Assembly (NCBI RefSeq): GCF_026151205.1
Contig: NC_087076.1
Span: forward strand, 12,385,675-12,449,674
Length of the DNA: 64,000 nucleotides
Source of the DNA: Bolinopsis microptera
Taxonomy: Eukaryota > Ctenophora > Tentaculata > Lobata > Bolinopsidae
Direction: 5' to 3'
How positions within the stretch are numbered: position 1 is the stretch's first letter; every line of letters begins with the position of its first letter. The notes below the pieces were generated by a model that saw nothing but the letters and a program-made list of their open reading frames with translations, was not told where the DNA came from and ran no database searches. Of the stretch, positions 3,953-54,603 are shown one piece after another. The position numbers and the translations under genes were made by a program.

Positions 3953-4534
3953 TTCCTCCTAATAACTCACCAGTGATATCTTCCTGTGACACTGATCAAG
4001 AGACCGGAGAGTAACATTTCCTCCTAATAACTCACCAGTGATATCTTCCTGTGGCACTGATCAAGGGACCGGAGAGTAACATTTCCTCCTAATAACTCAC
4101 CAGTGATATCTTCCTGTGACACTGATCAAGAGACCGGAGAGTAACATTTCCTCCTAATAACTCACCAGTGATATCTTCCTGTGACACTGATCAAGGGACC
4201 GGAGAGTAACATTTCCTCCTAATAACTCACCAGTGATATCTTCCTGTGGCACTGATCAAGGGACCGGAGAGTAACATTTCCTCCTAATAACTCACCAGTG
4301 ATATCTTCCTGTGACACTGATCAAGAGACCGGAGAGTAACATTTCCTCCTAATAACTCACCAGTGATATCTTCCTGTGACACTGATCAAGGGACAGGAGA
4401 GTAACATTTCCTCCTAATAACTCACCAGTGATATCTTCCTGTGACACTGATCAAGGGACCGGAGAGTAACATTTCCTCCTAATAACTCACCAGTGATATC
4501 TTCCTGTGGCACTGATCAAGGGACCGGAGAGTAA
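3953..4534. repeat. 65-bp minisatellite copying an exon 3' end plus its splice donor
   Basis: About nine copies of a 65-bp unit, with few substitutions. Read on the minus strand, each unit holds the last ~40 bp of the exon at 4491-4618 followed by its GTGAGT donor and ~24 bp of intron. The array lies immediately downstream of that donor, so the intron begins with a series of copies of its own 5' splice site and exon end. Confidence 0.9.
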
Positions 4535-4618
4535 CGTCTCCCTCGTCCCCACTCTCGTCACTCTCCTGCCAGCAGTTCCACTCACGTGCCAGGTGTGGCG
4601 CTAGCGGGATAGGACTGT
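4491..4618 (-). CDS. Internal exon of an unidentified minus-strand gene
   Basis: This is a 128-bp exon with a TTTCAG acceptor before it and a GTGAGT donor after it. It enters in phase 1 and leaves in phase 0. Its single open frame encodes 42 residues with a Trp-rich stretch (REWNCWQ) followed by an acidic run (ESDESGDEGD). I do not recognise the family. Both edges are flanked by minisatellites built from this exon's own junction sequence: 14 copies on the acceptor side and nine on the donor side. Neighbouring exons are not certain. The exon candidate at 5861-5918 joins in frame only in its less natural reading. The exon call rests on phase, splice sites and peptide quality. Confidence 0.6.
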
Positions 4619-5445
4619 CTGAAATAATAGTAATATAATAGGTATTTATTACCAGGTGCGGCGCTAGCGGGATAGGACTGTCTGAAATAATAGTAATATA
4701 ATAGGTATTTATTACCAGGTGTGGCGCTAGCGGGATAGGACTGTCTGAAATAATAGTAATATAATAGGTATTTATTACCAGGTGTGGTGCTAGCGGGATA
4801 GGACTGTCTGAAATAATAGTAATATAATAGGTATTTATTACCAGGTGCGGCGCTAGCGGGATAGGACTGTCTGAAATAATAGTAATATAATAGGTATTTA
4901 TTACCAGGTGCGGCGCTAGCGGGATAGGACTGTCTGAAATAATAGTAATATAATAGGTATTTATTACCAGGTGCGGTGCTAGCGGGATAGGACTGTCTGA
5001 AATAATAGTAATATAATAGGTATTTATTACCAGGTGCGGCGCTAGCGGGATAGGACTGTCTGAAATAATAGTAATATAATAGGTATTTATTACCAGGTGC
5101 GGCGCTAGCGGGATAGGACTGTCTGAAATAATAGTAATATAATGGGTATTTATTACCAGGTGCGGCGCTAGCGGGATAGGACTGTCTGAAATAATAGTAA
5201 TATAATAGGTATTTATTACCAGGTGCGGCGCTAGCGGGATAGGACTGTCTGAAATAATAGTAATATAATAGGTATTTATTACCAGGTGTGGTGCTAGCGG
5301 GATAGGACTGTCTGAAATAATAGTAATATAATAGGTATTTATTACCAGGTGTGGTGCTAGCGGGATAGGACTGTCTGAAATAATAGTAATATAATAGGTA
5401 TTTATTACCAGGTGTGGTGCTACCGGGATAGGACTGTCTGAAATA
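4588..5445. repeat. 63-bp minisatellite copying an acceptor plus exon start
   Basis: Fourteen copies of a 63-bp unit, starting every 63 bp from 4591 to 5410. On the minus strand each unit contains ATTATTTCAG (a 3' splice site) followed by the first ~27-31 bp of the exon at 4491-4618, then GTAATA. Because 63 is a multiple of three, the array reads through as a long artificial open frame of a 21-residue repeat. I do not regard that as protein-coding. Variation is mostly C/T exchange in a few positions of the exon-derived part. Confidence 0.9.
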
Positions 5446-5581
5446 ATAATATTGTAATATTAGAAGACGATGTACACTTGTATTTTGAAAGCTCTTGCTA
5501 AAACAAACTTTTCGTATCACTTACATGTTTTAAATAATCTCCCTCCAGGATTATAATAGGTATTTATTACGTAAGAATTTA

Positions 5582-9667: not shown

Positions 9668-11696
9668 ATGAGGTTTATCCTTAATCTGAGTTTACTGCTC
9701 AGTTTGATGGTATATCAGATTCAGTGCACAAACCTGGAGATTCCCATCACCGGATCATCAGCAAACAGTTGGGGCCAGTTAATAGATCACCGACCGGCTA
9801 TAAGCCGGCTACTAACCGGCTATAAGCCGGCTTATAGCCGGCTACAATTTTTATAGCCGGCTATAAGTCGGCTTATAGCCGGTTAGTAGCCGCTTACATT
9901 TGTTGTTGAGCGACGGCTATTAGCCGGTTATAAGCCTGCTATTAGCCGTTTTGGTATTAAAAGTGGTTATAAGCCGGCTATAAGCCGGTTATAAGATATT
10001 AACTCAACTACATCGTACTGAACGATAGTCAGGAGCCGGCTATAAGAAATTCAGTGAAAACGGCTATTAGCCGGTTATAAGCCGGCTATTAGCCGTTTAG
10101 GTATCGAAAGTGGTTATAAGCCGGCTATAAGCCGGTTAGGGAAATTGGTAGATCACCGACCGGCTATAAGCCGGTTATAAGCCGGCTATTAGCCGTTTAG
10201 GTATCGAAAGTGGTTATAAGCCGGCTTTAAGCCGGTTATAAGCCGGTTATAAGATATTAACTCAGTTCAGTACGATGAAGTTAAGTTAATATCTTATAGC
10301 CGGCTTATAGCCGGCTTATAACCACTTTCGATACCTAAACGGCTAATAGCCGGCTTATAACCGGCTAATAGCCGTTTTCGCTGAATTTCTTATAGCCGGC
10401 TCCTGACTATCGTTCAGTACGATGAAGTTGAGTTAATATCTTATAACCGGCTTATAGCCGGCTTATAACCACTTTCGATACCTAAACGGCTAATAGCCGG
10501 CTTATAACCGGCTAATAGCCGTTTTCACTGAATTTCTTATAGCCGATACCTAAACGGCTAATAGCCGGCTTATAACCGGCTAATAGCCGTCGCTCAACAA
10601 CAAATGTAAGCGGCTACTAACCGGCTATAAGCCGGCTTATAGCCGGCTATAAAAATTGTAGCCGGCTATAAGCCGGTTTATAGCCGGCTTATAACCGGCT
10701 TATAGCCGGTCGGTGATCTACCAATTTCCCACAGTTGGTACAGAGACGATACAGCACCCGACAGATTCCAGCCTTCCAACGTGTATGACAAAGATTACAC
10801 AACCATCTACAGTGTCAAAGATGAAGACAGTGATGGCAACTTCCTGAATCTGTATTTCTCTGAAATAAACGCTATCTATGAAGTGAAGATAACAAACAGA
10901 TTGGACGCAAACGTGTGTTGCACTCACAGAATCGATGGTACTGCTGTATTCGTTTACTTCAAAGAAGACGAGGATAATGAAAAAGAAGTCAAACGTTGTG
11001 GTGATATTCTAGGTAAGATAAGAGTAAAATTAAATTTCAAACCTTTACTTCTTATCATAATAATTAGTTAAAATAACTATAATAGTAGAAGATGTCATTA
11101 GAGTCAAATTCCGGCATGCACACCACTATTGCTTTATAGTTATTCACAACAAGATTTCCTCAGAAATGTCAGGAGGATCCAAAACTGACAAAGACGCTCA
11201 AACGTACACTATAGATTGTCAAGGAGCTCTCGGAAACATGGTTAAAATCACAGACGAGGTGACCGTAGGAGGTGTAGGACACGGACTTTCTGAAGTGAAG
11301 GTTTTTGGATCCAGTAAGTGCACTTTAGAGTCTAGATGAATAAAAAATTCATATTTATGGCAATCTGATACATAAATATAATTCACATGTAAGTCATATA
11401 TTTACCTGATTTACGATGAAATGATAGATATGCTACCGGTCGCGTCAAAATATGGTTCAAACTGAGTTCATATTTTTCAACAAGCTTTCTACCGGCAGTT
11501 CTAGTTGACTGCACTGGACTGAAGGCTGAGTGGACAAGTACGATTACCTCGTTATCAGAGTTCCCGGTTGTCCCAGAAGCGGTCATTGAGGTGACCTGTT
11601 CTGATTCAGTAGCCCTCAACAAAGGTAGCAGTAAAGTGACCTGCACAGCGGAGAAAGAATTTACTTTTGTAAAGAAGCCCAGCTGCTCGCGGCCAG
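9668..11696 (+). pseudogene. Secreted fucolectin-like + Sushi-like protein, exon 1 broken by a transposon
   Basis: Three exons are visible: 9668-9772 joined to 10739-11012 (exon 1, split by the element at 9773-10730), 11164-11313, and 11499-11696. The ATG at 9668 starts a signal peptide (MRFILNLSLLLSLMVYQIQC). Without the element and one copy of its 8-bp duplication the frame continues exactly from ANSW to YRDD. Exons 1-2 encode an F-lectin-like (fucolectin) domain: NxYDKDYTT, then VKITNRLD, a CCTHRIDG motif, and in exon 2 a C..G..V.I segment ending LSEVKVFGS. Exon 3 has the four-cysteine pattern of a Sushi/CCP module (DCTGL, EVTCSDS, KVTCTAEKEF, PSCSRP). All three visible introns are in phase 1, typical of shuffled extracellular modules. 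The last visible donor is GTAGTA at 11697, and further exons were not found. With the insertion, translation ends inside the element, so this allele should be non-functional. Confidence 0.8.
9773..10730. mobile_element. hAT-like non-autonomous inverted-repeat element in a lectin exon
   Basis: A 958-bp element flanked by a perfect 8-bp direct repeat ACAGTTGG (9765-9772 and 10731-10738). Its ends are inverted repeats sharing TAGATCACCGACCGGC. The interior is almost entirely reiterated GCCGGCTATAA / TTATAGCCGG motifs arranged as a nested palindrome. It has no open reading frame. An 8-bp duplication suggests the hAT class. It would form a very long hairpin. Confidence 0.85.
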
Positions 11697-13056: not shown

Positions 13057-13058
13057 CG

Positions 13059-13096
<38 letters not shown>

Positions 13097-13306: not shown

Positions 13307-15748
13307 CTATGTTACACCTGTCTGGTCCAACTCCTCTGGCACCACTAAGCGTTTAGTGTGGTTTGTAAAGTTGACAATGGTGGAGATGTGTTGGTTGTCG
13401 AATATGTCATTGACAGAGAGGTAGTAGTCCCGGAAATATTGACCTCTTATTTGGGCAATAGCCGGGCACTGTCCGAGAAAGTGTGAGACAGTCTCCTCTT
13501 CGTCGCCGCATTTAGGACAAGCACTTGTGTCTGATTTGCGAATGGTGTGTAGGTGTTTGTTGAGGCCACAATGTCCCGTGATGAGGTGCACTGCAGTTCT
13601 ATAATTTTGTCTGTTGTTACTGAGTGTAGTGTTGAGATTTTTGATGATGTTGATGTTTTTATGTCCAAGTGTCAGTTTAGTCTGTCTGGGACCATCAGTA
13701 ATCCATGATTCTTGATTAAGTTTTGTGACTTTGTCGTTGATCAGGCGTTTGATGTAAGATTGTGGAATTGGGCAATTCAAAGTGGATTCACTGGTTGTAC
13801 CATTTTTGGCCAGCTCGTCTGCTTTTTCATTACCCCACAATCCAATGTGTGCAGCTATCCATCTGATCTCTAAGGTGTTAGTGGATCCGAGTGTATTGAG
13901 GGTGTCGTAACAGTCTCTAGTAGTCCTACTCCTCGTTGAAGGTGAGGATATGGCTTGAATAGAAGAGAGACTGTCTGACCATATGATGATATGTGTGTTT
14001 GTGTAAGTTGATGGATGTTTACAAGCTTCGATGATGGCAGTGAGTTCTGTTTGATATACGGTGCAATAATCGGGAAGCTTGAATGATCTTTCATCTAGTG
14101 TAGTGTTGTTGTTGTCTGTGGTGATAATATAACCAGCCCCGCTACCTGAGTCTGTGCGTGACCCGTCTGTGTAGCAGGTGATGGTTTCACTGGGGATGTT
14201 GTCGATGGTGTTTTGGAGTGAGCCTCTATATCCAATGTTGTCAGCTCCAGGAGTGGTGACCGTGAAGCGTCGTTCAAGCATCATGGTTGGTATAGATAGG
14301 TCTCTCTCTGCTTTGAGTGGTATGTTGAGATCTACCATGAATTGTTTGTTGATAGTGGTGTGAGTTGTGATGGTACCTTTTCTGGGGGCGATAGTTTCGA
14401 GGGTTAGGCTTCCATAGGCTTGAAGCCTGGCTGTGCCCTTTGCTGCTTCACCTCTCAGGAAAAGTATGATATCTGGAGTGTTAGTGAGGTGGTTCAGTGC
14501 GATGAAGGGAGTACTAGGCATGGCACCAGACATCATTCTCAATGCCAATGCCTGAACTCGTTTGAACTTCCTCGCGTTGGTGTCTGTTTGAGTTGCTCTA
14601 ATCCATATACTACAGCAGTATGATAGAATAGGTCTGATGACAGCGGTGTACATCCATTTGCATGTTTTAGGGCTCATACCCCAAGTGGGGCCGACAGCTC
14701 TTCTACATTGCATAAGGGATGCCGTAGCTTTTTTGGTGGTATTGGTGATATGTTCATTGAAATTGAGCTTGCTGTCGAGGGTCACTCCTAGGAATTTGGC
14801 AGATTTGGATAGACCTATAGTGGTGTTACCCACCACCACAGGTCTTAGTGTCCATTTCTTATTCCAGGTAAACATGACTATTTGAGTTTTGAGTGCGCTT
14901 ATGGATAGATCTTTGGTTTGGCACCATTTTTCTATTGTGTTGATGGTTTTGCGTGTTCTGTTCCAGATGATATCTAAATCATTCCCCTCCGCTAGAGAGA
15001 GCAGATCGTCTGCAAAAGCTTGCAGATAACCTGGTATGTCTCTTGCGGTGTAGGCCAGGAGATCATCGACTACCAGGTTCCAGAGGAAAGGGGAAAGGAT
15101 GCCACCTTGAGGGCACCCTCTCCGGATCCGAACCCTTGTCGACTTATCCTTATGATTTAATGTGATGAATCTGTTAGTTACCATGTTGATAATCCATTGT
15201 GCTGTGGCCAGATCCACTTTCGTGGTCTTGATAGCGTCAGAAATAGCCTTGAAAGAGACATTATCAAAAGCTCCCTCTATATCTAGAAAGACGCCTAGGA
15301 CATATCCCTTCTTAGCTATCCTGCGCTCGATGGTGTGAGTAACTTTATGAAGGGCTGCTTCGGTTGAACATCCTTTCTTAAAGCCAAATTGTCGTTTGTT
15401 GATGTCTTTAGCGATATTAAGGTCGTGTTGCATATGCCACAGTATCACCTTCTCCTGTAGTTTTAACATCACTGGAGAAAGGGTGATAGTGCGAAATGAC
15501 TTTGGTTGGTTGTAGTCAGTTTTTCCAGGCTTTGGGAGAAAGATTCCAAGGGATTCTTTCCACAAAGTTGGAATGTGTTGGGTTTCATGATTTTTTGTCA
15601 TAATGGTTCTGGTGATGTCTTTGATGTGTGTCCAAGCTTTCTGTATCATGATAGGTTTGAGGGTGTCGGGTCCAGCAGCTTTCAACGGATCGAAGGATTT
15701 AAGAGCCTCCTCGATTCTGTCTGGGCTGTAGATGGTATTGAGTAAGGT
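13307..15748 (-). CDS. Retroelement reverse transcriptase / RNase H ORF (C-terminal ~800 residues of ORF2)
   Basis: An uninterrupted frame of about 810 codons ending at a stop near 13307. The RT palm is clear: FLDIEGAFD (motif A), RRGCPQGGILSPFLWN (motif B) and AFADDLL (motif C, the catalytic aspartates). An RNase H domain follows (CYTDGSRTDSGSGAGYI; later WIAAHIGLWGNEKADELAK), and the C-terminus has a CPKC...H...C zinc knuckle. It copies element RNA into DNA at a nicked target. There is no proper start: the frame is the downstream part of a longer ORF2 whose upstream part is interrupted at about 15.75 kb. It is surprisingly intact compared with the endonuclease part. Confidence 0.85.
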   Translation of the reverse strand, partial: TLLNTIYSPDRIEEALKSFDPLKAAGPDTLKPIMIQKAWTHIKDITRTIMTKNHETQHIPTLWKESLGIFLPKPGKTDYNQPKSFRTITLSPVMLKLQEKVILWHMQHDLNIAKDINKRQFGFKKGCSTEAALHKVTHTIERRIAKKGYVLGVFLDIEGAFDNVSFKAISDAIKTTKVDLATAQWIINMVTNRFITLNHKDKSTRVRIRRGCPQGGILSPFLWNLVVDDLLAYTARDIPGYLQAFADDLLSLAEGNDLDIIWNRTRKTINTIEKWCQTKDLSISALKTQIVMFTWNKKWTLRPVVVGNTTIGLSKSAKFLGVTLDSKLNFNEHITNTTKKATASLMQCRRAVGPTWGMSPKTCKWMYTAVIRPILSYCCSIWIRATQTDTNARKFKRVQALALRMMSGAMPSTPFIALNHLTNTPDIILFLRGEAAKGTARLQAYGSLTLETIAPRKGTITTHTTINKQFMVDLNIPLKAERDLSIPTMMLERRFTVTTPGADNIGYRGSLQNTIDNIPSETITCYTDGSRTDSGSGAGYIITTDNNNTTLDERSFKLPDYCTVYQTELTAIIEACKHPSTYTNTHIIIWSDSLSSIQAISSPSTRSRTTRDCYDTLNTLGSTNTLEIRWIAAHIGLWGNEKADELAKNGTTSESTLNCPIPQSYIKRLINDKVTKLNQESWITDGPRQTKLTLGHKNINIIKNLNTTLSNNRQNYRTAVHLITGHCGLNKHLHTIRKSDTSACPKCGDEEETVSHFLGQCPAIAQIRGQYFRDYYLSVNDIFDNQHISTIVNFTNHTKRLVVPEELDQTGVT

Positions 15749-25021: not shown

Positions 25022-25335
25022 AGGGAGTAGTCGTGTTGACTGAGTTAGCTGTAAAAAACAGCCAATAAGTAAAACTCAGATAGGGAGAAGTGTAGTCAAA
25101 GAACTGGTTGTAGGAAACAACACAGTCCAGATAGGAGTAGGAAGGGAGGACTCAGAACTAGTTGTAGAAAACAACGTAGTTTAGAGTAAAGTAGGCAAAG
25201 AAGACAGGCACGTAGCGTAAACTACAAAATAAAAATGTGTATTTGAAAGATAGAGCTTAAAGTTGAAATGTCAAAAGATTGTACTCAGTGTGTGAAATAG
25301 TAAACTGAAACCGGGTGAGCTATATTTCAAGAGGG

Positions 25336-25343
25336 TATTTATA
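25336..25343 (-). promoter_or_regulatory. TATA box of the left palindrome gene
   Basis: TATAAATA on the minus strand inside the small palindrome GGGTATAAATACCC, 315-322 bp upstream of the ATG. The flanking sequence is the same in the other arm. Confidence 0.6.
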
Positions 25344-39700: not shown

Positions 39701-42700
39701 AGATATATGCTCCCAGAGGACGAAGCCTTGTTGTCATAGTTATATAACCTATAATATGCCATAGTTTTTATTTATTTTGAATTGATGTATTATAGTCAAG
39801 ACTCTCATTGACAAATTTATACTTATTCCTGTTGAATCCTGTTTAGTGTCTAAGCCATAGGGAGAATGCCACTCAGATCAAAGCATACTCCCGGTAGATT
39901 TGTTACGGTAGATTAAACCGAATATTTCACACTCGGATCAGTAGTTTTTTCATTTGATTCTTAACTATATGGTTATTTTATATTCTGAACGATAGTAGAA
40001 TCAAACCCCTGTCAGCCGCCACATAGCACGAAAGCATGAAGTTCAGTAATCCTGACATAGCAGTCCAAAAGCCGATCCCGGCGCCCCTGGACACTGAGTA
40101 CCCGGTCACTGCGTGGGGTGTGGACCAGTGTGGGGAGAGTTTCAAACAGTTAACTATCTACCGGCCTCAAGTAGGCAAACACGATGTCAAGTTCGAGCTA
40201 AAGTTCTGTGGAATTTGTCATTCTGATGTCCACAATGTGCTCAATGAGATGTCTGAAAAATGGGGTAAGATGATTGATGATTGTTATCTTTATGGCAATT
40301 AAATATAGATTTTGTGAACCGTGTTGTGTGCCATGTTCCAACAAGTTCTTAACCCACTACTACTTACCGTGTTCCAACAAGTTCTTAACCCACTACTACT
40401 TACCGTGTTCCAACAAGTTCTTAACCCACTACTACTTACCGTGTTCCAACAAGTTCTTAACCCACTACTACTTACCGTGTTCCAACAAGTTCTTAACCCA
40501 CTACTACTTACCGTGTTCCAACAAGTTCTTAACCCACTACTACTTACCGTGTTCCAACAAGTTCCTAACCCACTACTACTTACCGTGTTCCAACAAGTTC
40601 TTAACCCACTACTACTTACCGTGTTCCAACAAGTTCTTAACCCACTACTACTTACCGTGTTCCAACAAGTTCTTAACCCACTACTACTTACCGTGTTCCA
40701 ACAAGTTCTTAACCCACTACTACTTACCGTGTTCCAACAAGTTCTTAACCCACTACTACTTACCGTGTTCCAACAAGTTCTTAACCCACTACTACTTACC
40801 GTGTTCCAACAAGTTCTTAACCCACTACTACTTACCGTGTTCCGACAAGTTCTTAACCCACTACTACTTACCGTGTTCCAACAAGTTCTTAACCCACTAC
40901 TACTTACCGTGTTCCAACAAGTTCTTAACCCACTACTACTTACCGTGTTCCAACAAGTTCTTAACCCACTACTACTTACCGTGTTCCAACAAGTTCTTAA
41001 CCCACTACTACTTACCGTGTTCCAACAAGTTCTTAACCCACTACTACTTACCGTGTTCCAACAAGTTCTTAACCCACTACTACTTACCGTGTTCCAACAA
41101 GTTCTTAACCCACTACTACTTACCGTGTTCCAACAAGTTCTTAACCCACTACTACTTACCGTGTTCCAACAAGTTCTTAACCCACTACTACTTACCGTGT
41201 TCCAACAAGTTCTTAACCCACTACTACTTACCGTGTTCCAACAAGTTCTTAACCCACTACTACTTACCGTGTTCCAACAAGTTCTTAACCCACTACTACT
41301 TACCGTGTTCCAACAAGTTCTTAACCCACTATTACTTGCCAGGATCAACGTACCCAATTGTACCGGGTCACGAGTTAGTGGGGACAGTGGTGGAGGTGGG
41401 AGAGAAAGTGAGCCGAGTAAAGGTGGGGGACAATGTGGGGGTGGGTTGCATCAGGGATAGCTGTCTGATTTGTGAGGTGTGCCACAAGGGTGAGGAGTGC
41501 TACTGTGTTAATGGCTTTACACACACTTACAATACTCCTAAGAAGAAGGTGGGTTTTTCTTTTTTGTGTTACAAAAATGTCCAATTGAAACTTTTCTTTA
41601 AATTATTCTTGAGCGCAATACAAATTTATGATATCTTTGTTATGTTCATATATCGTAGGAAAACTGCCACATAGGAGGAAACCCGGAGGTACAGAACTGG
41701 GGAGGTTACTCTGAGTTTGACGTGGTCCACGAACACTTCATAATCAAGATACCAGAGGGGATGCCACTGGAAAAGGCAGGACCTATCCTGTGTGCAGGGA
41801 TCACAATGTGGTCTCCACTGAACCACTGGGGAGCAACAAACACGGAAAAGAAGCTGAATATCGGGATAGTCGGGATCGGGGGACTGGGCACAATGGGCAT
41901 CAAGTTAGCGGCCGCTCTGGGACACCGAGTTGTGGCCATTTCCAGCAGCGACAAGAAGATCGATATAGCAAAATCTAAAGGAGCGGCGGATTATGTTGTG
42001 TCCAAAGATGCTGACTCAGTGGGGAGGGAGCGAGGAAAGTTAGACCTGATCATTAACACTGTCTCCGCTCCACACGACATAGCTCCTTACATCTCCATGC
42101 TGAAGACTGACGGTACTCTCGTCCAACTGGGCTGCATTGCAGCGCCCATGCAATACAATCAGTTTATGCTAATATTGAAGAGGATATCCATTGCTGGTTC
42201 TCTGATCGGCGGAATCCCCGCCACGCAGGAGGTGGTGGATTTCTGCTTTAAAAACGAGATATACCCGGACATAGAGCTTGTAGAAGCAGGGCAGCTGGAT
42301 AAAATTTACACTGAGCTTCAGGAGAACAACAGTACGGCGGTCAGGTACGTGCTGGATATCAAAAAGAGTCTGGAGACGACCAAATAATAAGCTTTTCTTA
42401 AACAGCAGCAATTATGTGGCTCCAGAACCTTCTCCGTGTTAAAAAATCAGTTGATCGTTCAAGTAGAAAAGTTAGCTTTTTAAATGATTCTTTTTGTTTA
42501 AATTTTGTATTGAATTGGTAAATATACTCGTAAATATTTCTTTTAAATTCAGCTTATAAACTTCTATTCCTGTTTCTTCTAATCTAGTAAAATCGTGATT
42601 TAGTGAATTTGTTGATTATATTTTTAATTTGTTGCAGCTATATGACTGTTCAGTTTTTACACGCTTGATAAAACTATGCTTTATGAGAACTAATAAAAAA

Positions 42701-45700
42701 AAGGATGTCACCTAAGTGTCTTCTAAAAATACTAATGTCCATGCTGTAAACATGATGTAAACATGCAGTAAACATGCTGTAAACATGCTGTAAACATGCA
42801 GTAAACATGCTGTAAACATGCTGTAAACATGCTGTAAACATGCTGTAAACATGCTGTAAAAGTGCTGTAAAAGTGCTGTAAAAGTGCCGACAATAAATAT
42901 CTTACCAGAAGTTTACAGTTCTCAATCTTAACAAGAGCCTTATGTCTCGGATCCTTGTGAACCGGTTGTAGGTTCAAACTCAGCTGTTGAAACTGCATGT
43001 CAGGGTCCTCCTCCGCTGTCGTGTAAGCGTGGGACAACGCCTGCAGATATAGGGTTCATAGACTTTAACAACGCCTGCAGATATAGGGTTCATAAACTTT
43101 AACGGAGACAACGCCTGCAGATATAGGGTTCATAAACTTTAACGGAGACAGGGCCTGCAGATATAGGGTTCATAAACTTTAACGGAGCGATGTGGGACAA
43201 CGCCTGCAGATATAGGGTTCATTAACTTTAACGGAGACAACGCCTGCAGATATAGGGTTCATAAACTTTAACGGAGACAACGCCTGCAGATATAGGGTTC
43301 ATAAACTTTAACGGAGCGATGTAGGGCCATCATTCAAAATCTTTTAATTGAGAATTGATAACGATTGAATGTTATGATTAATGACCCCACACAATCTTTT
43401 GATCTTGGTTGATTTAAAAGAACAGCGCTCATCACTTTTCATCCACTCTGTAAATTAGCATACCAGAAGGGGGATTATAACAAGTTCTGAGTTGTGACTG
43501 CTTGAGTAATATGGGTATGACAGCAAGCATACTTAATTTTAATCAGCCAATATGACCGTAACTAAACAAGAGTTGGTAACAAATCGACCTCCCAACGTCC
43601 CAAATTCAAATTTACTGGAAAGAGCATTGAATGCATGCCATCAACTTTTAGAAAGTTTTCGTATCACAGGAATCATTATGACTTTATTGGTTTAGGATAT
43701 TATGATGTACCATGCAGGCGCATATTTTTATGTATAATGTACATAAGTGGGTACACCCTCCAGGCTTTTCTCACAACGGAGCTTTAAATTTATTTCAATT
43801 TCAATGCCCCGAAGAATAGCGAAGCGGAAATTCATTCAATTTGAAAATCAATATGAACGCAAGTCAGTTAACACTTCCTTTGCAGCACTGATAGTGTCAT
43901 AGTGATGATCATTGAAGAAAGCGTTAAAATTTGTAGAAAAATAAATTGAAATTATAGAGGTATGGAAGAGACTGGTATGCATACCTTAGTCAAGTGCAAG
44001 AAAGCCATGGCTTTGCAGAGTCAAAACAACGAGACAACAGTAGCTCAGTGCACAAGTTTTCGCACTCAGCGTCCGCTGTCTTAATTGAAACTATTCAAAC
44101 TGCACTATCTCCAGTCCAGCTGTACTAATAAATCAGAGAAGACCAACAAATCATCTGATTGGCTGTCGGTAAGTAACGTGATCCTCATCATCAGCCCTGA
44201 TTGGTTAAAATGCGAGATCTCGAACATCTTCCCACGAAGGAAGCAGCAGCTTGTCAGTGCAGCACTCTCACAACAGGTTACCATGACGACTACAATACCG
44301 CGTGTTTACCACCACAACTAATTCATTATTTTTCAACCTGCTGCAGGTGTGCAGGTAATGTGAAGTTACTTGACAGCTACATGAAATTGGGATCACCAAG
44401 GTTTTGATGGTCGGTAAAACGGGATAAAAAAGTAATAAAGTAATGTAGTGCTAGTTACCAAGGCTGGAGTTACCATAGCTAGTTACCATGGCTAGTTACC
44501 ATGGCTGATAAAGTAATGTAGTGCTAGTTACCATGGCTAGTTACCATGGCTGAAAAAGTAATGTAGTGCTAGTTACCATGGCTGGAGTTATCATAGCTAG
44601 TTACCATGGCTAGTTACCATGGCTAGTTACCATGGCTGATAAAGTAATGTAGTGCTAGTTACCATGGCTAGTTACCATGGCTGATAAAGTAATGTAGTGC
44701 TAGTTACCAAGGCTGGAGTTACCATAGCTAGTTACCATGGCTAGTTACCATGGCTGATAAAGTAATGTAGTACTAGTTACTATGGCTAGTTACCATGGCT
44801 GAAAAAGTAATGTAGTGCTAGTTACCATGGCTGGAGTTATCATAGCTAGTTACCATGGCTAGTTACCATGGCTAGTTACCATGGCTGATAAAGTAATGTA
44901 GTGCTAGTTACCATAGCTAGTTACTATGACTAGTTACCATGGCTGATAAAGTAATGTAGTGCTAGTTACCATGGCTAGTTACCATGGCTGATAAAGTAAT
45001 GTAGTCTAGTTACCATGGCTGGAGTTACCATAGCTAGTTACCATGGCTGATAAAGTAATGTAGTGCTAGTTACCATGGCTAGTTACCATGGCTGATAAAG
45101 TAATGTAGTCTAGTTACCATGGCTGGAGTTACCATAGCTAGTTACCATGGCTGATAAAGTAATGTAGTGCTAGTTACCATGGCTAGTTACCGTGGCTGGA
45201 GTTACCATGGCTAGTTACCATGGTTGATAAAGTAATGTAGTCTAGTTACCATGGCTAGTTACCATGGCTAGTTACCATGGCTGATAAAGTAATGTAGTGC
45301 TAGTTACCATGGCTAGTTACCATGGCTGATAAAGTAATGTAGTCTAGTTACCATGGCTGGAGTTACCATAGCTAGTTACCATGGCTGATAAAGTAATGTA
45401 GTGCTAGTTACCATGGCTAGTTACCATGGCTGAAAAAGTAATGTAGTGCTAGTTACCATGGCTGGAGTTACCATGGCTAGTTACCATGGCTGATAAAGTA
45501 ATGTAGTGCTAGTTACCATGGCTAGTTACTATGGCTAGTTACCATGGCTAGTTACCATGGTTGATAAAGTAATGTAGTGCTAGTTACCATGGCTAGTTAC
45601 CATGGCTGATAAAGTAATGTAGTCTAGTTACCATGGCTGGAGTTACCATAGCTAGTTACCATGGCTAGTTACCATGGCTAGTTACCATGGCTGATAAAGT

Positions 45701-48700
45701 AATGTAGTGCTAGTTACCATGGCTAGTTACCATGGCTGATAAAGTAATGTAGTCTAGTTACCATGGCTGGAGTTACCATGGCTAGTTACCATGGCTGAAA
45801 AAGTAATGTAGTGCTAGTTACCATGGCTGGAGTTACCATAGCTAGTTACCATGGCTGATAAAGTAATGTAGTGCTAGTTACCATGGCTGGAGTTACCATG
45901 GCTAGTTACCATGGCTGATAAAGTAATGTAGTGCTAGTTACCATGGCTGGAGTTACCATAGCTAGTTACCATGGCTAGTTACCATGGCTAGTTACCATGG
46001 CTGATAAAGTAATGTAGTGCTAGTTACCATGGCTAGTTACCATGGCTGATAAAGTAATGTAGTCTAGTTACCATGGCTGGAGTTACCATAGCTAGTTACC
46101 ATGGCTAGTTACCATGGCTAGTTACCATGGCTGATAAAGTAATGTAGTGCTAGTTACCATGGCTAGTTACCATGGCTGATAAAGTAATGTAGTCTAGTTA
46201 CCATGGCTGGAGTTACCATAGCTAGTTACCATGGCTGATAAAGTAATGTAGTGCTAGTTACTATGGCTAGTTACCATGGCTGATAAAGTAATGTAGTCTA
46301 GTTACCGTGGCTGGAGTTACCATGGCTAGTTACCATGGTTGATAAAGTAATGTAGTCTAGTTACCATGGCTAGTTACCATGGCTAGTTACCATGGCTGAT
46401 AAAGTAATGTAGTGCTAGTTACCATGGCTAGTTACCATGGCTGATAAAGTAATGTAGTCTAGTTACCATGGCTGGAGTTACCATAGCTAGTTACCATGGC
46501 TGATAAAGTAATGTAGTGCTAGTTACCATGGCTAGTTACTATGGCTAGTTACCATGGCTAGTTACCATGGCTGGAGTTACCATGGCTAGTTACCATGGTT
46601 GATAAAGTAATGTAGTGCTAGTTACCATGGCTAGTTACCATGGTTGATAAAGTAATGTAGTGCTAGTTACTATGGCTAGTTACCATGGTTGATAAAGTAA
46701 TGTAGTCTAGTTACCATGGCTAGTTACCTGGCTGATAAAGTAATGTAGTGCTAGTTACCATGGCTAGTTACCATGGCTGATAAAGTAATGTAGTGCTAGT
46801 TACCATGGCTAGTTACCATGGTTGATAAAGTAATGTAGTGCTAGTTACCATGGCTGGAGGAGCGGTCTGTGGTCGTGTTTTCTCTTTAGTAGCTGGAGTT
46901 TCCGGAGGTCTGAAAAACAGATTTTAGTTACGGAAAAATCCATATTTACATACAGGGTGGCCCAAAAGTGACTACCCACACGCAACCTTTTAATAACTCA
47001 CGTAATTCGTCTTTAAATTGCACCAAAATTTCAGAGAATATAGATATGGGTCAAACTTAGATTTCCCGAAAGTTTCGTAAGCCACGCCCAATTACAGTGG
47101 GCTTGGCTTGACACTCCCTCTTTTTCACTATTGTCTTCATAAAATGAGAACGCTTTAAGCTAAGAACTCCAAATTTTGTGCACACATTTGGCTCGATAAT
47201 TTAAAACCTTTCCCAAAGTTTCAAGTTCATTGTTCAAAATTTTGCTGAGTTATGACCATTTCAAAATTCATCGGATACGTGATCCGAGCACTCAGTGATC
47301 TCTGCACTCAATCAGTGATCTCGCCACCCAATCTGATCAAGAGTAAGGCGTTAGCGTATATTAATGAGGTTCATTAGGCTTTACCAAACATACTGAGGAG
47401 ATGACGACCTGATCATGATTGATTGGATACCGATAATGACTTTAATAGACAGGAAAACACCAAATTCTTCGTAAAAGTAAGGTCCTAGGATTCCACGAGA
47501 ACTGATGGCGCACCAGATCGTGACCTTTTCAGGAAAATCAGGAATCACGGTCTTAAAGTTGGTGTTTCTTTGTGATCCGATAGGCCCGGTTAGAAAGATC
47601 TCACTTTAGGATTCGTTGAAGGGATGTTCTGCTGAGGTCTAAGGCAGGAGCTCGTTTTCGGGTGCCAATTTTAGGTGTATCCATCACGTCACAAACAACC
47701 ATGGTGACGACGATTAACACATGTTTATTGAAAGCTTCTACAAGTTAAATCATCGTATCTCTTATATGTTTTTAACCCAACTCCACTCAGAACCATGGTG
47801 ATGTTTTCTTCGGTCCTCGCAGTTCGTCTTCTGCCGACTCTTCGCCGATCGTTTGCAGAAAAAGTAAACTTGATCTTGTGATGCATATCAAAGCAGCTTT
47901 TCCGGCAAGGGGATGGTCGGTTGAATTTCATTTGAAATTGTCGTTTAAGCTGAGTGCTGAACCCATTCTCTTTCTTCAGGTAGACAAACAATCGTTGTTC
48001 CGCAGTATAGGGAGGATAGTGAACCATTTTCGATGATTCTATGGATAGTTCATTCCTTTTTATCGATTGTAAGGAACGAACCTGTGACTAGCAGGGCTAA
48101 CAAGCCCTGCAACCAATCAAGCGGTGCATGTGAGCCAAACAGGCCATTAACCAAGTGCAGAGATCACTGACTGAGTGCTCGGATCACGTATCCGATGAAT
48201 TTTGAAATGGTCATAACTCAGCCAAATTTTTAACAATGAACTTGAAACTTTGGGAAAGGTTTTAAATTATCAAGCCAAATGTGTGCAAAAAATTTGGAGT
48301 TCTTAGCTTAAAGCGTTCTCATTTTATGAGGACAATAGTGAAAAAGAGGGAGTGTCACGCCACGCCCACTGTAATTGGGCGTGGCTTACGAAACTTTCAG
48401 GAAATCTAAGTTTGACCCATATCTATATTCTCTGAAATTTTTGTGCAAGTTGAAGACGAATTACGTGAGTTATTAAAAGGTTGCGTGTGGGTAGTCACTT
48501 TTGGGCCACCCTGTAGTTTTTACTGCGTTTAATTTTAACGCTTTAGTTTTAATCAAAATGAAAAAGACAAATCCTTTTGAAATGACTATCAATCACTGGA
48601 AATTTTGACCGCACAAAAGATAACCAAGAGAAATATACGAATTACGATCAACTGATACTCACAGAAGGGCGACAGAGTTGAGATAATCCACATAATTAAC

Positions 48701-51700
48701 AACGTCATCCTCATGTTGTGGACCTGGAATCTGTAACCCGTAGTCTGACATGATATTCTTGAAGTCAGAGTACGGTACGCAGCCTGTCTCGTCTTTATCT
48801 AAAGACCTGAAAATGGGTAATAATAGTAATATTATTTTTGGTCTGTCAAATTAGACCCTCAACCAGTAACCACCCAGATACATCGGAGTATGGATTGGAT
48901 AATATAAAAAAAATTCTGCAGCGTAAATAAGGTTATGCAACATTTGGAGTTTAATTTATTAATCACTTGCCTACAAAAGGTAAAAAACGTTTTTTACTAA
49001 CAAAATTCTCCGGCGAAATACCTGAAATTGTCAAGAACGTCCACAAAGTCAGAGTGGAGCTGAGCGAAGAGTCGTGCCTCAGCAATGTCCGCGAACTCAG
49101 TGTCCCCAGTCTGTGGGCGATCGGAGCAGTTCTTCACGTAACCGCTCCTGCCTCTCTCCATGTACTTGCGGAGGAAGGTCTTGTAGGGTACTCGGTCCAT
49201 TATCCACGCGTCCACTAAGTCAGATCTGGAAATAAGTTGGCCATTGAAAACGAATGGATTAAATTCTTAGATAAAGAAACGAAAATTTAAATTGTTCAGC
49301 ATTTTAAACTATGAGAAAAGTCTGAAACACATTGAAGAATATGCCTCGAACCAAACCTTTGAAGTAGGGTCTCAATCTGAGATTTGGTGAGATCGACAGT
49401 GAAATGTCTCAAAACTCGCTTGAAGTCTTCTCTGGATAGAAGTCCTCGGTTTCCTTTATCGTAAACTTCAAACGCTTTCACCATGTCTAGATACCCTGCG
49501 TTAACCTGAGAAGAGAATCCACTCTGATCACACTTGCTATTTGTTTCAAAAATCAAAATTAACTGTTTAATTATTGTCCTCGCCAATCCCAGTTGTAGCT
49601 GCTCATGGTGCTCAAGCTCTTTATCAGCTGGAGGTCTTGTCACATTTTGTATGCCTACAATCTACAATGAAATATAGCAGAATACACATGGACATTGGAC
49701 AATAGAATGTTTGTATAAAATTTACGGTTGCTGATTTACGTTGGTAGCCAGCTGCCAATATCACGAATAGTTACTTGGAGTAACAGAAACCTCGGTTTTA
49801 CGGCACAACTTGGCTTTTGTGATAAGAACAGTTAACATCATCCCAGCTGGTACTTCCCCAGAACACCACCAATAAGAATGAGCCTTAGATGGGGCACCAG
49901 CTGTTTTTGTTGTCATGAAACTTTTCACGGGCGGTACAACGTTGCCCGCTTAACACGTTTAACTACAAAAAGTGAATATTTTTCTTCCATATAAAAGTTT
50001 GTGATTGTAATAAACGTCTGGTCCCTATGCTTGTGCGTGGTCGAATATTTGTCATTATACTTTTCCTGGTTAAGTAAGTATGCACAGTCTTCCAGATTTG
50101 CAAGTCTATCAATATTAGTGTTTCGAGGCAGATAACACTATAACACACATCAATTAAATATTCGCTTGATTTATTTAAAATCTGACAAATGCAGCTCTAA
50201 CAATTTCCTCACTCAGTATAGAAGAAGCACCGTGCAGTTCTAACAATTTCCTCACTCAGTATAGAAGAAGCACCGTGCAGTTCTAACAATTTCCTCACTC
50301 AGTATAGAAGAAGCACCGTGCAGTTCTAACAATTTCCTCACTCAGTATAGAAGAAGCACCGTGCAGTTCTAACAATTTCCTCACTCAGTATAGAAGAAGC
50401 ACCGTGCAGTCACTCAGGCACAATAGATGGGGAGACGAGCATAAACCTTTTAAAGAGTTACTTCTGTATCGGAGACCCAAAATGGCCGGACCACATCCAA
50501 GATCATGCTCTGAAAGCGCTGTGTAAAACTTTCAGAGCGACAGTCTGCGATTACGACTTACCAACCCTGAAAGAAATAATCACGTGGCTTAAGGAAATCA
50601 ACTCCAACTTGGGCAGCAGCGAAAAGAGGGATAAATTCAATGGTTGTTTGGAGGGTGAGTTTGAGAGGTTTTTAGAGAAGCTGCTCTGTTGGGGCCGGAA
50701 GAGTAAGGTTTACATGAAGACTTGTTTAGGGTTTGCTAAATTGTGGACCTGCGAACACACGGAGAAAGGATTATGCTACATAATGACATTTCTTTATCCC
50801 AAAGCGGATTTCTTAGTAGAAACCATCGCTGATTTCTGCCCAAAAACACGCAAGATCAACACCGACCATCATGGTAACTATGGTAACCATAGAGTAGTCA
50901 AAAGACAATACGACGTTTCCTCGATGATATCTCTGGTTAAGACAATGGTTTGTAGGGTAGACAGTATCCGGCAGATAGCCCGGTATATAGAGGAACACGT
51001 GGTGACTGATCTTCCAGGGATCACTGAGCTGGCTGATTTAATGTCCGGACCAGCTTGCTGCGTCCTGGACTCTATCAAGTAAAGTAAGTCTCTAAAGTAG
51101 GACTCTATCAAGTAAAGTATGACTCTAAAGTAGGACTCTAAAGTATGACTCTAAAGTAGGACTCTAAAGTAGGACTCTAAATTATGACTCTTAAGTAGGA
51201 CTTTATCAAGTAAAGTAGAAATCTAAAGTAGGACTCTAAAGTAGGACTCTAAAGTAGGACTCTAAAGTAGGACTCTAAAGTAGGACTCTAAAGTATGACT
51301 CTAAAGTAGGACTCTAAAGTAGGACTCTAAATTATGACTCTAAAGTAGGACTTCATCAAGTAAAGTAGAAATCTAAAGTAGGACTCTAAAGTAGGGCTCT
51401 AAAGTAGGACTCTAAAGTAGAACTCTTAAGTGGGACTCTAAAGTGGGACTCTAAAGTAAGACTCTAAAGTAGGACTCTATCAAGTAAAGTATGACTCTAA
51501 AGTAGGACTCTAAAGTATGACTCTAAAGTAGGACTCTAAAGTAGGACTCTAAAGTAGGACTCTAAAGTATGACTCTAAAGTAGGACTCTAAAGTATGACT
51601 CTAAAGTAGGACTCTAAAGTAGGACTCTAAGGTATGACTCTAAAGTAGGACTCTAAAGTAGGACTCTAAAGTATGACTCTAAAGTAGGACTCTATCAAGT

Positions 51701-54603
51701 AGTTTATTTGTGGCAATAGTTCATTTTTGAGAAGCTTTGTTAACCCTGTTAACCAGCTGTTATGCTTGGAAGGTCAAACTGGATTTTTGTAAATAAACTA
51801 GTAAAAACTAAAACGGCAGAGAGTTTATTTACAAACGATATTCAAACTGATCTGAACATTTCTGAACGACACTGAAGAAAATAAGTAACTAAATATTGTG
51901 TGATATTCTAATGGATCGTTACCTTCTGTCTTATGACATTGTAAAGTGGTGAGCTATCCTGGGTATCGTTTGAGAATAAGCTGACATCAGACATTCTCGA
52001 ACATGATCCTCTGGATACTTTGTCGTACCTGGGGTATTTAATTGTATTTAATTGGTATATAATTGGTATTTAATTGGTACAAGAGCCATTATACTTTCAT
52101 TCTACGCACGGTGACCAGACAGTATTTAATATAATTTGTACGACTTTAAATCAATTTCAAGATGCCTTGAGTTATGAATGTTTCTGTTATGTATGTTGTA
52201 CCTGAGGAATTTACTCTACCACAAAAATGACAAGTCAATATTTCCTTGATTTCGATGAAAAGTTGGAACGGTGTCATAATTTATAATTTTCATCAAAAGA
52301 ACGATTGTGATGTTGGTTGCTTAGCAAGATACGTGAGTTATAAACGTACATTTATCTTTCCACTGCTCTAATTTTGACAACATTTAGTAAATTTCCGCAC
52401 AGTACTCGCTAAAATGACATTCCAATTTCATCGAATAATACACCAAATTCCTAAAATTGGACAGGGTTCACAACTTCAAAATATCAAGGAAAATAAAGAG
52501 TGAAACTTACGACGAGACCAGCTTTTCGACAGCGTGAGTAGGAAGGGATATCCCGGTTTCCGATAAGGATTCTCTGTAAGACAACGCTTCCTTTGTCTTG
52601 GCACTTCTTGCACTCCCCGGGCGACTGCCCCTGCTAGCTAAAGAAGCTCTACTCGGTTGAGAAGCCCTGTTTCCAGGAGTTACCGGGGTTACCGGGCCGG
52701 AGTGGGGTCGCTTCCTGGATGAGGAACCACTCGGGGGACGCGACACCGCACTTCTGGGACGAACAGACCGCGCCTGTCGGAAAGTCCAGTCATTAATTCA
52801 AGTTTACCTTCAAAATTAATTTACCATTGATATTGTTGAACCTTTCATTCCATGGAATCATGCCATCTAAAGGCCGGGAGATAAAGCAGACTCACGATGC
52901 TAGAAGCAGTCTGCGCCCGGGAGGGAGGGCGGGTAACAGACAGGGCGTGGGGACTCATTATGTGATCACGTGATGGGGTGTGATCACGTGATGCCGGGGT
53001 GTGAGAGTGGCTGGTGGAGGGACGGGATGTCTTGAGAGAGCTCCTGCTGGGGAGCTGCTGTTCTGTGGCCACTCTCTGGGACACGTGCTCTAGGAGGTCC
53101 TCTGACATCAGGCTCCAATTCTGAGGAATGGGTGTATATTAAATAGCATCGCAAATCGCAATATTGTCATAGTCATTGTTCTAGAATGTAAATTCCTATA
53201 GCTGATACCTATGTTATCTTATTTAATTACAGTAAAACCCCAATTTACCGCGAGCATTTCAGTCCCCAAACTCGGGGTTTTACTGTAAAGACCTGGTTAA
53301 ACTTACCCCAAACTCGGGGTTTTACTGTAAAGACCTGGTTAAACTTACCCCAAACTCGGGGTTTTACTGTAAAGACCTGGTTAAACTTACCGACAGAGGA
53401 CTGCAAGCCACACTTCTTGTAACCGGTGGAGGCCCTGACAGTTCTCCTGATACTATGCCTGCAAATACTTTAGGAAACATTAGTTCCTTGTAATGCTACA
53501 TCACTGACACATGAACTGACACCTTACTTACCAACACATGATAAACTGACACACTAGTACAACACAGGATAAACTGACACCTTACTTACCAACTAATCGG
53601 TCCAGTGACTCCTGAATGCTCAACTGACGAGTTTTCTTAATCACACAAATTATTCATACTTGCTTTAAAAATGCTAAGACACAAATGACCTACACATGGT
53701 CACACACATTAAATCTAATTGCACAACACTTGACATGGAGACAGAAAGTTCAGGCAATCAAAATCATTCGTGAGATCTGGGATGCAATTAGGTTGAGAAA
53801 TGCTCCTGAAGAGAAATTTGCAAATCGAAAGAAAAATATGAACAATTATTTAACTGATTCAGGGCGAATATTCGGTATACATAGTTTATTATATTAATTA
53901 CTAGGAAAGGGGTGAGAAGAATGAAGATTAACTCTATGTTAAAATATATTCTGCATATTCTGAAAATGTCTCACGGTTCTTGATGTTGCTGACTTCCGCT
54001 GATTCCTGCCTATGAGCATTCCTTGTCCGGGTAAGTTCCAGAAGATCAGCTGTACTCTCAGCCACTGAAGGGACCGCGACATCACCTGGACCTTCAATGT
54101 TTAGTTTAAGACGTTAATACTTAAAATCACGTTCATAACCGGTAGAAGAATAAGAACACAGATGAAATATTATATTTACAAGATCCTGACCTAATCTCCG
54201 GACAACACTTGCAGGTCGCCAGGATTGCTCTGAAGGTCCCCGGGACTCCTTCCTGGACTCCCTGCTCTGCTGCTCCCTCAAGAGGGCCTCGTCTATCAGC
54301 TGGATGCGGGGGGAGGTGGAGGGAGGTGGTGGAGGAGGTTTGTTATAGTGACTCCCACTCTTACATCCTCGCTTCAGAATATCATTCCCTTTTATTGAAA
54401 TTCCTGAGGATTTGCTCATATGAAGTTTAATCGATAGTGAAAATAGCGAAAAAAATCAAGACGAAATATTAGTTATGGAACTTAAAAATAAATCTTTAAA
54501 GAAAGAGACATTATGGTAATTTGAGCTGACCTAGTTCACCCTGTTTAGGAGTGTTGAGTTGTGGAAGGGAGTTGAGGCGGCGAGGTGGTTGCCTGGTTGG
54601 CAT
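36730..54603 (-). CDS. EF-hand protein (EFCAB6-like), 15 exons, ~680 residues
   Basis: Exons in transcript order: 54531-54603, 54191-54403, 53975-54091, 53391-53458, 52896-53120, 52511-52773, 51923-52028, 49357-49505, 49022-49225, 48663-48806, 46849-46909, 42906-43040, 38170-38241, 37717-37829, 36730-36829. Every junction is GT-AG and phases match throughout, giving 2043 bp. The ATG at 54603 has an in-frame TAA 12 bp upstream; the stop is TAA at 36730-36732. Residues 1-320 are Pro/Ser/Arg-rich and probably disordered. From ~356 on there are EF-hand-like units: FEVYDKGNRGLLSREDF, SLDKDETGCVPYSDF, MQHYDTQRDGHINIGTF and VINTYDTGFKGVIPYRKF. Several loops lack ligand residues, so calcium binding is likely weak or structural. 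Family and layout recall axonemal EF-hand proteins such as EFCAB6, by inference. Two plus-strand genes lie inside its introns. Minisatellites sit at the edges of exons 4, 11, 12 and 15. Confidence 0.8.
36822..37046. repeat. 32-bp minisatellite copying the last-exon acceptor
   Basis: Seven almost perfect copies, starting every 32 bp from 36822 to 37014. On the minus strand each contains CCTATTTGCAG followed by GGTGGATG, the first 8 bp of the EF-hand gene's last exon (starts 36829). The intron thus ends with seven consecutive identical 3' splice sites. Confidence 0.95.
38845..39167 (-). mobile_element. Non-autonomous Helitron, copy 2
   Basis: 323 bp, reverse-complement copy of 7272-7588 with the same TC and CTAG termini and an A|T target. 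It lies in intron 12 of the EF-hand gene, 5' of the nested dehydrogenase gene. Confidence 0.8.
40036..42387 (+). CDS. Zinc-dependent alcohol dehydrogenase, cinnamyl-alcohol-dehydrogenase type
   Basis: Exons 40036-40264, 41343-41548 and 41659-42387 (GT-AG; intron phases 1 and 0) encode 387 residues. It is a medium-chain dehydrogenase that interconverts aldehydes and alcohols with NADP(H). Catalytic zinc ligands are Cys58 (CGICHSD), His86 (GHE) and Cys190 (ILCAGIT). The structural zinc site is Cys117, 120, 123 and 131 in the expected C-x2-C-x2-C-x7-C spacing. The nucleotide fold has GIGGLG at 217-222, followed by SSSDKK, which favours NADPH. Length is slightly above the usual 350-360. All key residues are present. 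It is nested, antisense, in intron 12 of the EF-hand gene. Intron 1 is nearly filled by a 36-bp minisatellite. The family is commonest in plants, fungi and bacteria, so an old transfer is possible, but the introns show it is settled in this genome. Confidence 0.9.
40325..41342. repeat. 36-bp minisatellite filling dehydrogenase intron 1
   Basis: About 28 copies of a 36-bp unit with only a handful of substitutions. Each unit has TTCTTAAC, a good branch-point match, followed by ACTACTACTTACC. The last unit is altered to ACTATTACTTGCCAG, and its AG is the 3' splice site at 41341-41342. The array therefore multiplies the region just upstream of the acceptor. Long open frames over it on both strands are artefacts of the period being a multiple of three. 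Confidence 0.95.
42692..42697 (+). promoter_or_regulatory. Candidate poly(A) signal of the dehydrogenase gene
   Basis: AATAAA 305 bp after the stop codon, before the first bases of the antisense 11-bp array. It is the closest canonical hexamer downstream of the stop. Confidence 0.5.
42735..42890. repeat. 11-bp minisatellite near the exon 12 donor of the EF-hand gene
   Basis: About 14 copies of CATGCTGTAAA with a few A/G variants (AGTGCTGTAAA at the exon-proximal end). It begins about 15 bp inside the intron after the GTAAGA donor. On the minus strand each unit reads TTTACAGCATG. Confidence 0.85.
43034..43325. repeat. ~40-bp minisatellite copying the exon 12 acceptor
   Basis: Seven units starting at 43034, 43068, 43108, 43148, 43197, 43237 and 43277. 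On the minus strand each contains CCTATATCTGCAG followed by GCGTTGT, the first bases of exon 12 (starts 43040). Two units also carry GGGACAACGC, extending the exon copy to about 10-12 bp. Unit length varies from 34 to 49 bp. Confidence 0.9.
44440..46850. repeat. 2.4-kb composite minisatellite copying the exon 11 donor
   Basis: Built from a 14-bp core GCTAGTTACCATGG and a longer unit adding CTGATAAAGTAATGTAGT, arranged in higher-order blocks of ~45-110 bp. On the minus strand the core reads GCCATG|GTAACTAG, which is exactly the end of exon 11 plus its 5' splice site at 46848-46849. The intron of the EF-hand gene therefore starts with roughly a hundred copies of its own donor. One- and two-base variants (CATAGC, CTATGG, CCGTGG) recur in linked patterns, a sign of block duplication. 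Confidence 0.95.
46953..48513. mobile_element. Degenerate mariner-type element with long inverted repeats
   Basis: 1561 bp flanked by TA (46951-46952, 48514-48515), ends CAGGGTGGCCCAAAAGTGAC and complement. The inverted repeats extend inward for ~330 bp with good identity. It holds remnants of a minus-strand transposase. The TA target and the CAGGGTGGCCC end match the Tc1/mariner superfamily (rosa-like). It lies in intron 10 of the EF-hand gene. Confidence 0.85.
47400..48027 (-). pseudogene. Mariner transposase remnant
   Basis: The N-terminal ~100 codons (48027-47725) begin MVHYPPYTAEQRLFVYL, a helix-turn-helix DNA-binding start usual for mariner-like transposases. Downstream, another frame has a VTIWCAISSRGILGPYF-type segment near 47.5 kb, typical of the catalytic core after the second Asp. 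The parts between are deleted or frameshifted, and the DD(E/D) triad cannot be followed, so it is inactive. Confidence 0.7.
49990..49997 (+). promoter_or_regulatory. TATA box of the nested secreted-protein gene
   Basis: TATAAAAG lies 37 bp upstream of the ATG at 50027. If initiation is ~28 bp downstream, the 5' UTR is only about ten bases. Confidence 0.55.
50027..51082 (+). CDS. Small secreted cysteine-containing protein, two exons, unknown family
   Basis: Exon 1 is 50027-50073 and exon 2 is 50389-51082, joined GTAAGT...CTCACTCAG in phase 2, giving 246 residues. Exon 1 encodes a short signal peptide (MLVRGRIFVIILFLV). The mature part has about 14 cysteines (for example WTCEHTEKGLCYI, PACCVLD), looks mainly helical, and ends DSIK before a TAA stop. 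I do not recognise it. It lies antisense in intron 7 of the EF-hand gene. Its only intron ends in five copies of a 43-bp unit containing the acceptor, and the DNA after its stop is an array containing copies of the stop region. A TATA box 37 bp upstream supports the start. Confidence 0.75.
50191..50405. repeat. 43-bp minisatellite copying the exon 2 acceptor
   Basis: Five copies starting every 43 bp from 50191 to 50363. Each holds TTCTAAC (branch-point match), a pyrimidine tract, CTCACTCAG and the first ~17-20 bp of exon 2 of the secreted-protein gene. Use of an upstream copy would add exactly 43 bp or a multiple, changing the frame unless three are added. Confidence 0.95.
51067..51700. repeat. 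Array containing copies of the gene's 3' end
   Basis: Units of 14 bp (GACTCTAAAGTAGGA and variants) are interspersed with the longer GACTCTATCAAGTAAAGTA. The latter copies the last codons and stop of the secreted-protein gene (GACTCTATCAAGTAA). It starts at the stop codon and runs ~630 bp. Confidence 0.85.
53262..53390. repeat. Three-copy 43-bp repeat at the exon 4 donor
   Basis: Units of AAACTCGGGGTTTTACTG plus TAAAGACCTGGTTAAACTTACC. On the minus strand each starts GGTAAGTTTAACCAGG, the same as the true donor of exon 4 (53391). Three good 5' splice sites therefore stand in series. Each unit also contains CTTTACAG, a possible acceptor. Confidence 0.85.

Follow-up and report, generated by a model that had tools for sequence, protein, structure and literature searches.

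The window, by which we mean the whole 64,000-nucleotide stretch analyzed, is Bolinopsis microptera DNA and corresponds to C5:12385675-12449674 of an assembly of 264.65 Mb in 232 contigs. The published genome of this comb jelly comprises, according to the portions of the literature available to us, 13 chromosome-scale scaffolds with an estimated size of 254 Mb, and RNA-seq and Iso-Seq data exist beside it. The minus strand encodes LOC134815972, an EF-hand gene similar to EFCAB6 (E = 3.5e-27 for the best match in the Protein Data Bank). Its isoform X2 (protein record P0121) was placed by exact match over 680 of 681 residues in 15 minus-strand exons, the missing residue being a split codon; exon edges at split codons were left unrefined in this placement. 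This record pins the donors of exons 4 and 11 to 53391 and 46849 and the acceptor of exon 12 to 43040, and it puts the exon 15 acceptor at 36829 with one base allowed for a split codon. The exon numbers are identical to those of an earlier first-pass annotation, except that the start of exon 4, set there at 53458, is placed upstream by the protein record (exon 4, 53391 to 53465).

Each of these four junctions carries a minus-strand tandem array. The array at the exon 4 donor (J4, 53264 to 53391; 42 bp, 3.0 copies) starts at the donor GT and copies no exon beyond one shared G, just as had been claimed for this unit, which was said to hold only donor and intron. The array at the donor of exon 11 (exon, 46849 to 46908; J5, 44450 to 46859) is a composite based on a 13-bp unit, covered by several overlapping Tandem Repeats Finder rows, and it holds 98 exact copies of CCATG joined to GTAACT, with about 5 to 8 exon bases in each unit. 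At the acceptor of exon 12 (exon, 42906 to 43040; J6, 43033 to 43316) there are 34-, 40-, and 49-bp units (40 bp, 7.0 copies in Tandem Repeats Finder) with six extra acceptors; the single 49-bp unit includes 12 exon bases, and the 40- or 34-bp units include 8 or 7. The fourth array (J7, 36821 to 37048; 32 bp, 7.1 copies) lies at the acceptor of exon 15, the last exon (36733 to 36829, mapped by P0121), and its unit consists of 23 bp of intron and 9 bp of exon. When matches at 17 or more of the 24 bases round a junction were counted as junction copies, with the used site included, GTAACT was present in 99 of 99 copies in J5 and AG in 7 of 7 copies in each of J6 and J7.

Two plus-strand genes are nested in this minus-strand gene, at 40036 to 42387 in intron 12 and at 50027 to 51082 in intron 7, which fits the gene nesting described in ctenophores in the parts of the literature at hand. 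The gene in intron 7 is modeled as a two-exon gene for a secreted protein, with exon 2 starting at 50390, and the acceptor of this exon lies inside the last unit of a plus-strand array (J3, 50190 to 50410; 43 bp, 5.1 copies) whose unit combines 22 bp of intron and 21 bp of exon. The intron/exon splits of J3 to J6 were read by eye from the sequence outputs. The acceptor at 50390 fits the two of four homologues that reach that far (P0123 and, from Mnemiopsis, P0124); the four protein matches of the gene include no Bolinopsis record. The stop codon of this gene is also where a 13-bp array begins (51080 to 51694), with units resembling the gene's last codons. The gene in intron 12 is a three-exon alcohol dehydrogenase identified by protein match, 96% identical over the query to a Bolinopsis microptera NCBI entry (P0001) that carries the exon 2 splice. 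Its intron 1 contains a plus-strand array (J8, 40334 to 41337; 36 bp, 27.9 copies), absent from the first-pass list, that stops 5 bp short of the acceptor of exon 2; J8 adjoins the junction without copying it, and of its units only the final one runs on into the AG.

Near the start of the window, a candidate internal exon on the minus strand (4491 to 4618) has arrays on both sides. It is predicted from its open reading frame and favorable splice signals, and it yielded no Pfam match and no protein support. Its putative acceptor array (J1, 4589 to 5459; 63 bp, 13.8 copies) has a unit of 31 bp of intron and 32 bp of exon, with AG in 14 of 14 junction copies, and its putative donor array (J2, 3945 to 4535; 65 bp, 9.1 copies) has a unit in which about 45 bp come from the exon and 20 bp from the intron, with GT in 9 of 9. 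The J1 array is itself open in frame and may be a coding repeat.

Several features of the window stand apart from these arrays. A foldback-like stretch of CCGGCTATAAG palindromes at 9786 to 10722, judging from visual inspection, separates two coding parts of a gene for a secreted protein. An open frame of 792 residues at 13307 to 15685 resembles a reverse transcriptase of the non-LTR type that includes a ribonuclease H portion. The segment from 23651 to 30273 is an inverted gene duplication with an 18-bp coding repeat, present as 21.8 units in one copy and 22.8 in the other. Two further arrays, at 55975 to 56261 and 62923 to 64000, have units with donor-like words (GTGAGT and GGTAAC) and no exon recognized alongside.

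The observation that minisatellites in this region are built from exon-intron junctions is thus largely right. All seven arrays named by the first-pass annotation were recovered by Tandem Repeats Finder, with periods that match the unit lengths given there to within 1 bp. As for the seven junctions themselves, the four in the EF-hand gene stand on P0121 and a fifth, in the secreted gene, on homologues; the two at 4491 to 4618 were not confirmed. Six of the seven units copy exon bases, over a range of about 5 to about 45 bp. The tandem unit holds an exon-intron boundary at the four junctions fixed by P0121 (in J4, donor and intron only) and, outside the window, at one fixed by an LMF1_C match (see below). 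The extra copies sit on the intron side, and the annotated proteins use the outermost site, i.e., the first donor or the last acceptor, as checked at the four EF-hand junctions and in the dehydrogenase from P0121 and P0001. Across unrelated genes, the units in the window range from 13 to 65 bp and are unrelated in sequence to each other; these differences in sequence and length, together with a unit length at exon 12 that is unequal between two contigs taken as alleles, bear out the earlier proposal that the arrays arose independently.

The second of these contigs, C39, is 97% identical to the window in the dehydrogenase exons and aligns with it from about 39.2 kb onward; on the basis of this identity, we take it to be the probable second allele of the region. 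It is clean up to window position 49.1 kb and of raw-read quality beyond, where about 1.4 kb of the window (49095 to 50478) is skipped; this drop in quality and the skipped stretch are probably an assembly fault in a haplotig. J3 and J4 lie in this poorer part and fall outside the comparison. All three arrays covered by clean C39 sequence, namely, J5, J6, and the adjoining J8, differ between the two contigs. The exon 11 donor CCATGGTAACT is present in 98 copies in the window and 225 in C39, J6 has six extra acceptors at 34- to 49-bp spacing in the window and two at 34-bp spacing in C39, and J8 has 27.9 copies against 16.9. In each case, the exon edge is unchanged. An insert with inverted ends (46952 to 48514), which to us has a mariner-like look, is missing from the same place in C39.

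We then asked how far the position of the arrays departs from chance in the part of the window where the exons are known (36733 to 54603, 17.9 kb), which holds 34 junctions and 8 qualifying arrays (score of at least 100, period of 10 to 150, and a minimum of 2.5 copies; weaker rows were left out, and J5 was delimited by hand from several rows). Under a constrained null model, in which arrays are limited to 70 coding bases each and never engulf an exon, 6 of the 8 arrays touch a junction or come within 6 bp of one where 1.08 are expected (P = 1.2e-4, post hoc), and 5 of the 8 overlap a junction where 0.99 are expected (P = 1.1e-3, post hoc); the sixth near-junction array is J8. An unconstrained test, run before some junctions were shifted by 1 to 5 bp, gave P = 0.08. 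Since the window was chosen for this pattern, all of these P values are optimistic.

The strongest new result comes from the genome as a whole. Three GTAAGT words spaced 26 to 56 bp apart occur 17,645 times (8,582 + 9,063), against 3,157 times (1,701 + 1,456) for the control pattern with the letters reversed, an excess of about 5.6-fold in a count that tallies copies rather than arrays and in which long arrays weigh heavily. In 419,160 non-array bases from the window and the sample (both strands), single GTAAGT words and their reversed counterparts are nearly equal in number (131 versus 127), so that the donor excess belongs to the arrays. The listed matches, which cover C1 up to 1.29 Mb on the forward strand, comprise at least nine distinct GTAAGT arrays; taken at face value, a crude extrapolation from this one chromosome end would give some thousands of arrays per genome.

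Flanks were read for seven of these nine arrays (those other than 217513 and 377705), and three of the seven copy the donor of a recognizable exon. In L025, 41 to 45 bases are copied from a Sushi-like exon (Pfam E = 0.0025, below the cut-off); in L029, 45 bases are copied from a dynein-like exon (AAA_8 E = 1.7e-5, just below the cut-off); and in L030, 32 bases are copied from another dynein-like exon (AAA_9 E = 8e-4, below the cut-off). Beside the donor array of L030, at about 190 to 510, the dynein-like coding exon also contains an in-frame tandem duplication of about 180 bp. L026 has arrays on both sides of an LMF1-like exon (LMF1_C E = 8e-29): the listed 14-bp GTAAGT array ends about 5 bp from the acceptor without copying it, and a 65-bp array on the other side copies the donor, with 61 exon bases and GTAA. 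The array in L027 likewise stops short of an acceptor, by about 10 bp, and does not copy it, and that in L031, which resembles ABHD17, lies about 60 bp inside an intron. No exon was recognized beside the array in L028. A donor array in the sample outside the window, L016, copies 58 exon bases; neither L016 nor L031 has a Pfam match.

Tests on array units gave a mixed picture. About 226 kb of genome letters were sampled and 41 arrays were scored, 16 in the window and 25 outside it; an initial exon search set to strict cut-offs found few of the true exons and was set aside. In splice scores against random fragments, the 16 window arrays are enriched (Fisher 0.005 for donors and 0.015 for acceptors), and enrichment is not significant in the 25 from outside it (0.09 and 0.32). 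The rank of GTAAGT among its letter permutations in the 41 arrays is not significant (18 of 90 do as well). In the permutation test on units of arrays outside the window, GTAAGT, GTGAGT, and TTGCAG are absent, and GTAAGG (1 of 60 permutations at least as common) and TTTCAG (5 of 120) rank high. The earlier suggestion of a preference for junctions accordingly holds for donors genome-wide, in a count weighted by copy number, and is not significant in the small sample outside the window.

Minisatellites at splice junctions had been presented as unexpected, and this needs correction in light of the "mirages" of amphioxus. In the parts of the two reports that we could draw on, these are tandem duplications of exon-intron boundaries, at both donors and acceptors, in Adh3, the globins BflGb6 and BflGb9, troponin C, and PGBD5, with units of 10 to 72 bp in Adh3, about 150 to 160 bp in the globins, and 60 and 108 bp in PGBD5 (PMC3087553, PMC3902484). 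The same accounts describe copy number that is unequal between BflGb6 haplotypes, undisturbed splicing, and somatic instability of the Adh3 mirages; they call the origin of mirages unclear and propose a role in intron gain (PMC3087553, PMC3902484). The comb jelly arrays share with the mirages so described the boundary-containing units, the occurrence at both donors and acceptors, and a copy number that is unequal between contigs taken as alleles. They differ in the ctenophore host, in the up to 225 copies of one donor, in the genome-wide excess of the donor word, and in the arrays on both sides of one exon. We therefore consider the junction arrays to be mirage-type minisatellites, a kind known before from amphioxus (PMC3087553, PMC3902484), with a probability of roughly three in four. 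What is new, as far as the literature searched goes, is the host and the apparent scale: no report of junction arrays in ctenophores was found in the open-license literature searched, and the portions of the Hormiphora genome paper covered, which describe 13% tandem repeats, nested genes, and trans-splicing, do not mention repeats at junctions. In this comb jelly genome, the mirage structure looks widespread.

Two other systems invite comparison. As in the Rogers model of tandem duplication of AG/GT (cited in PMC3087553, as far as that source was available), an intron grows or arises through duplication of a segment that includes a splice site; unlike in that model, the comb jelly intron pre-exists and is extended by the extra copies, and no new intron is shown. 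A further parallel is offered by dispersed intronic elements. Introners and introner-like elements are repetitive sequences associated with introns and splice sites; the comb jelly units, unlike these, look local and differ between genes by inspection. Arrays of spliced-leader genes were also considered because ctenophores trans-splice, according to the portions of the literature available, and are disfavored by the 13- to 65-bp units with exon tails.

The explanation that we favor, about as firmly as the mirage assignment itself, is that a short stretch spanning an exon edge is duplicated in tandem and that its copy number then grows. The duplication might occur at short matching bases: the exon copy in L026 begins with GTAA, as does the donor, and one 49-bp unit of J6 still joins the exon bases CCCAC to the intron bases ATCGC. 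The extra copies would leave with the intron and do little harm, surviving where duplications within exons do not, and surviving arrays could expand by slippage or unequal exchange. Given splicing at the outermost site, which removes the copies, such a change should be close to neutral and able to grow, and this filter explains why the copies sit on the intron side. Tolerance alone would fail to explain the excess over intron interiors, and some junction bias in the starting or growing of arrays, the simplest supplement to the filter, is hence likely. Overall, tolerance through splicing is likely to be part of the junction preference, and a mutational bias toward junctions is possible.

In one alternative, splice sites are mutational hot spots at which cotranscriptional processes such as R-loops, pausing, or template switching start the duplications. 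The recurrence at unrelated genes with unrelated units, the arrays on both sides of the exon at 4491 to 4618 and of the LMF1-like exon in L026, and the genome-wide donor excess are all consistent with such hot spots, which we nonetheless hold to be improbable. The results favor none of the causes named earlier, namely, break repair at R-loops, paused splicing complexes, or reinserted splicing intermediates. A slightly less probable alternative is that selection acts only as a filter, with duplications starting evenly, exonic ones being lost, and no preference for junctions. The unconstrained window test (P = 0.08) and the nonsignificant sample outside the window speak for it, but it is difficult to reconcile with a 5.6-fold donor excess at array spacing without an excess of single words, though the former is copy weighted, or with 6 of 8 arrays against 1.08 expected under the filter model itself.

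The order of events might instead be reversed, a dispersed or introner-like unit with a donor-like word having landed near an exon that later adopted its splice site. J4, which copies no exon, and J5, which copies only about 5 to 8 bp, could be read in this way, and the short J5-like word GTTACCAT is dispersed, occurring 31 times against 5 for its reversed form in 248,765 other bases (15 of the 31 in L016). We regard this as quite unlikely, as the 12- and 14-base J5 words occur 0 times in the same 248,765 bases, and the 7 to 61 bp of exon copied in J1 to J3, J6, J7, L016, L025, L026, L029, and L030 would be unexpected of a landed repeat, with the caveat that J1 and J2 belong to an unproven exon. 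An artifact of assembling long-read data is very improbable: the raw-read quality of C39 past window position 49.1 kb means that copy numbers may be wrong, but two contigs carry J5, J6, and J8 between clean flanking sequences.

Beyond the favored explanation of tandem duplication across exon edges, one may tentatively conceive of ctenophore splice sites as hot spots of tandem duplication at large, with thousands of self-copied exon edges and introns that grow outward, a process that may feed intron growth and gain; we consider this broader picture possible but short of probable. If the junction arrays do number in the thousands in an animal as far from chordates as a ctenophore, mirages would be a recurrent route of intron growth rather than a lancelet oddity. 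The chromosome-scale genome with its RNA-seq and Iso-Seq data would let one ask how the cell picks one site among up to 225 and whether new introns arise from such arrays.
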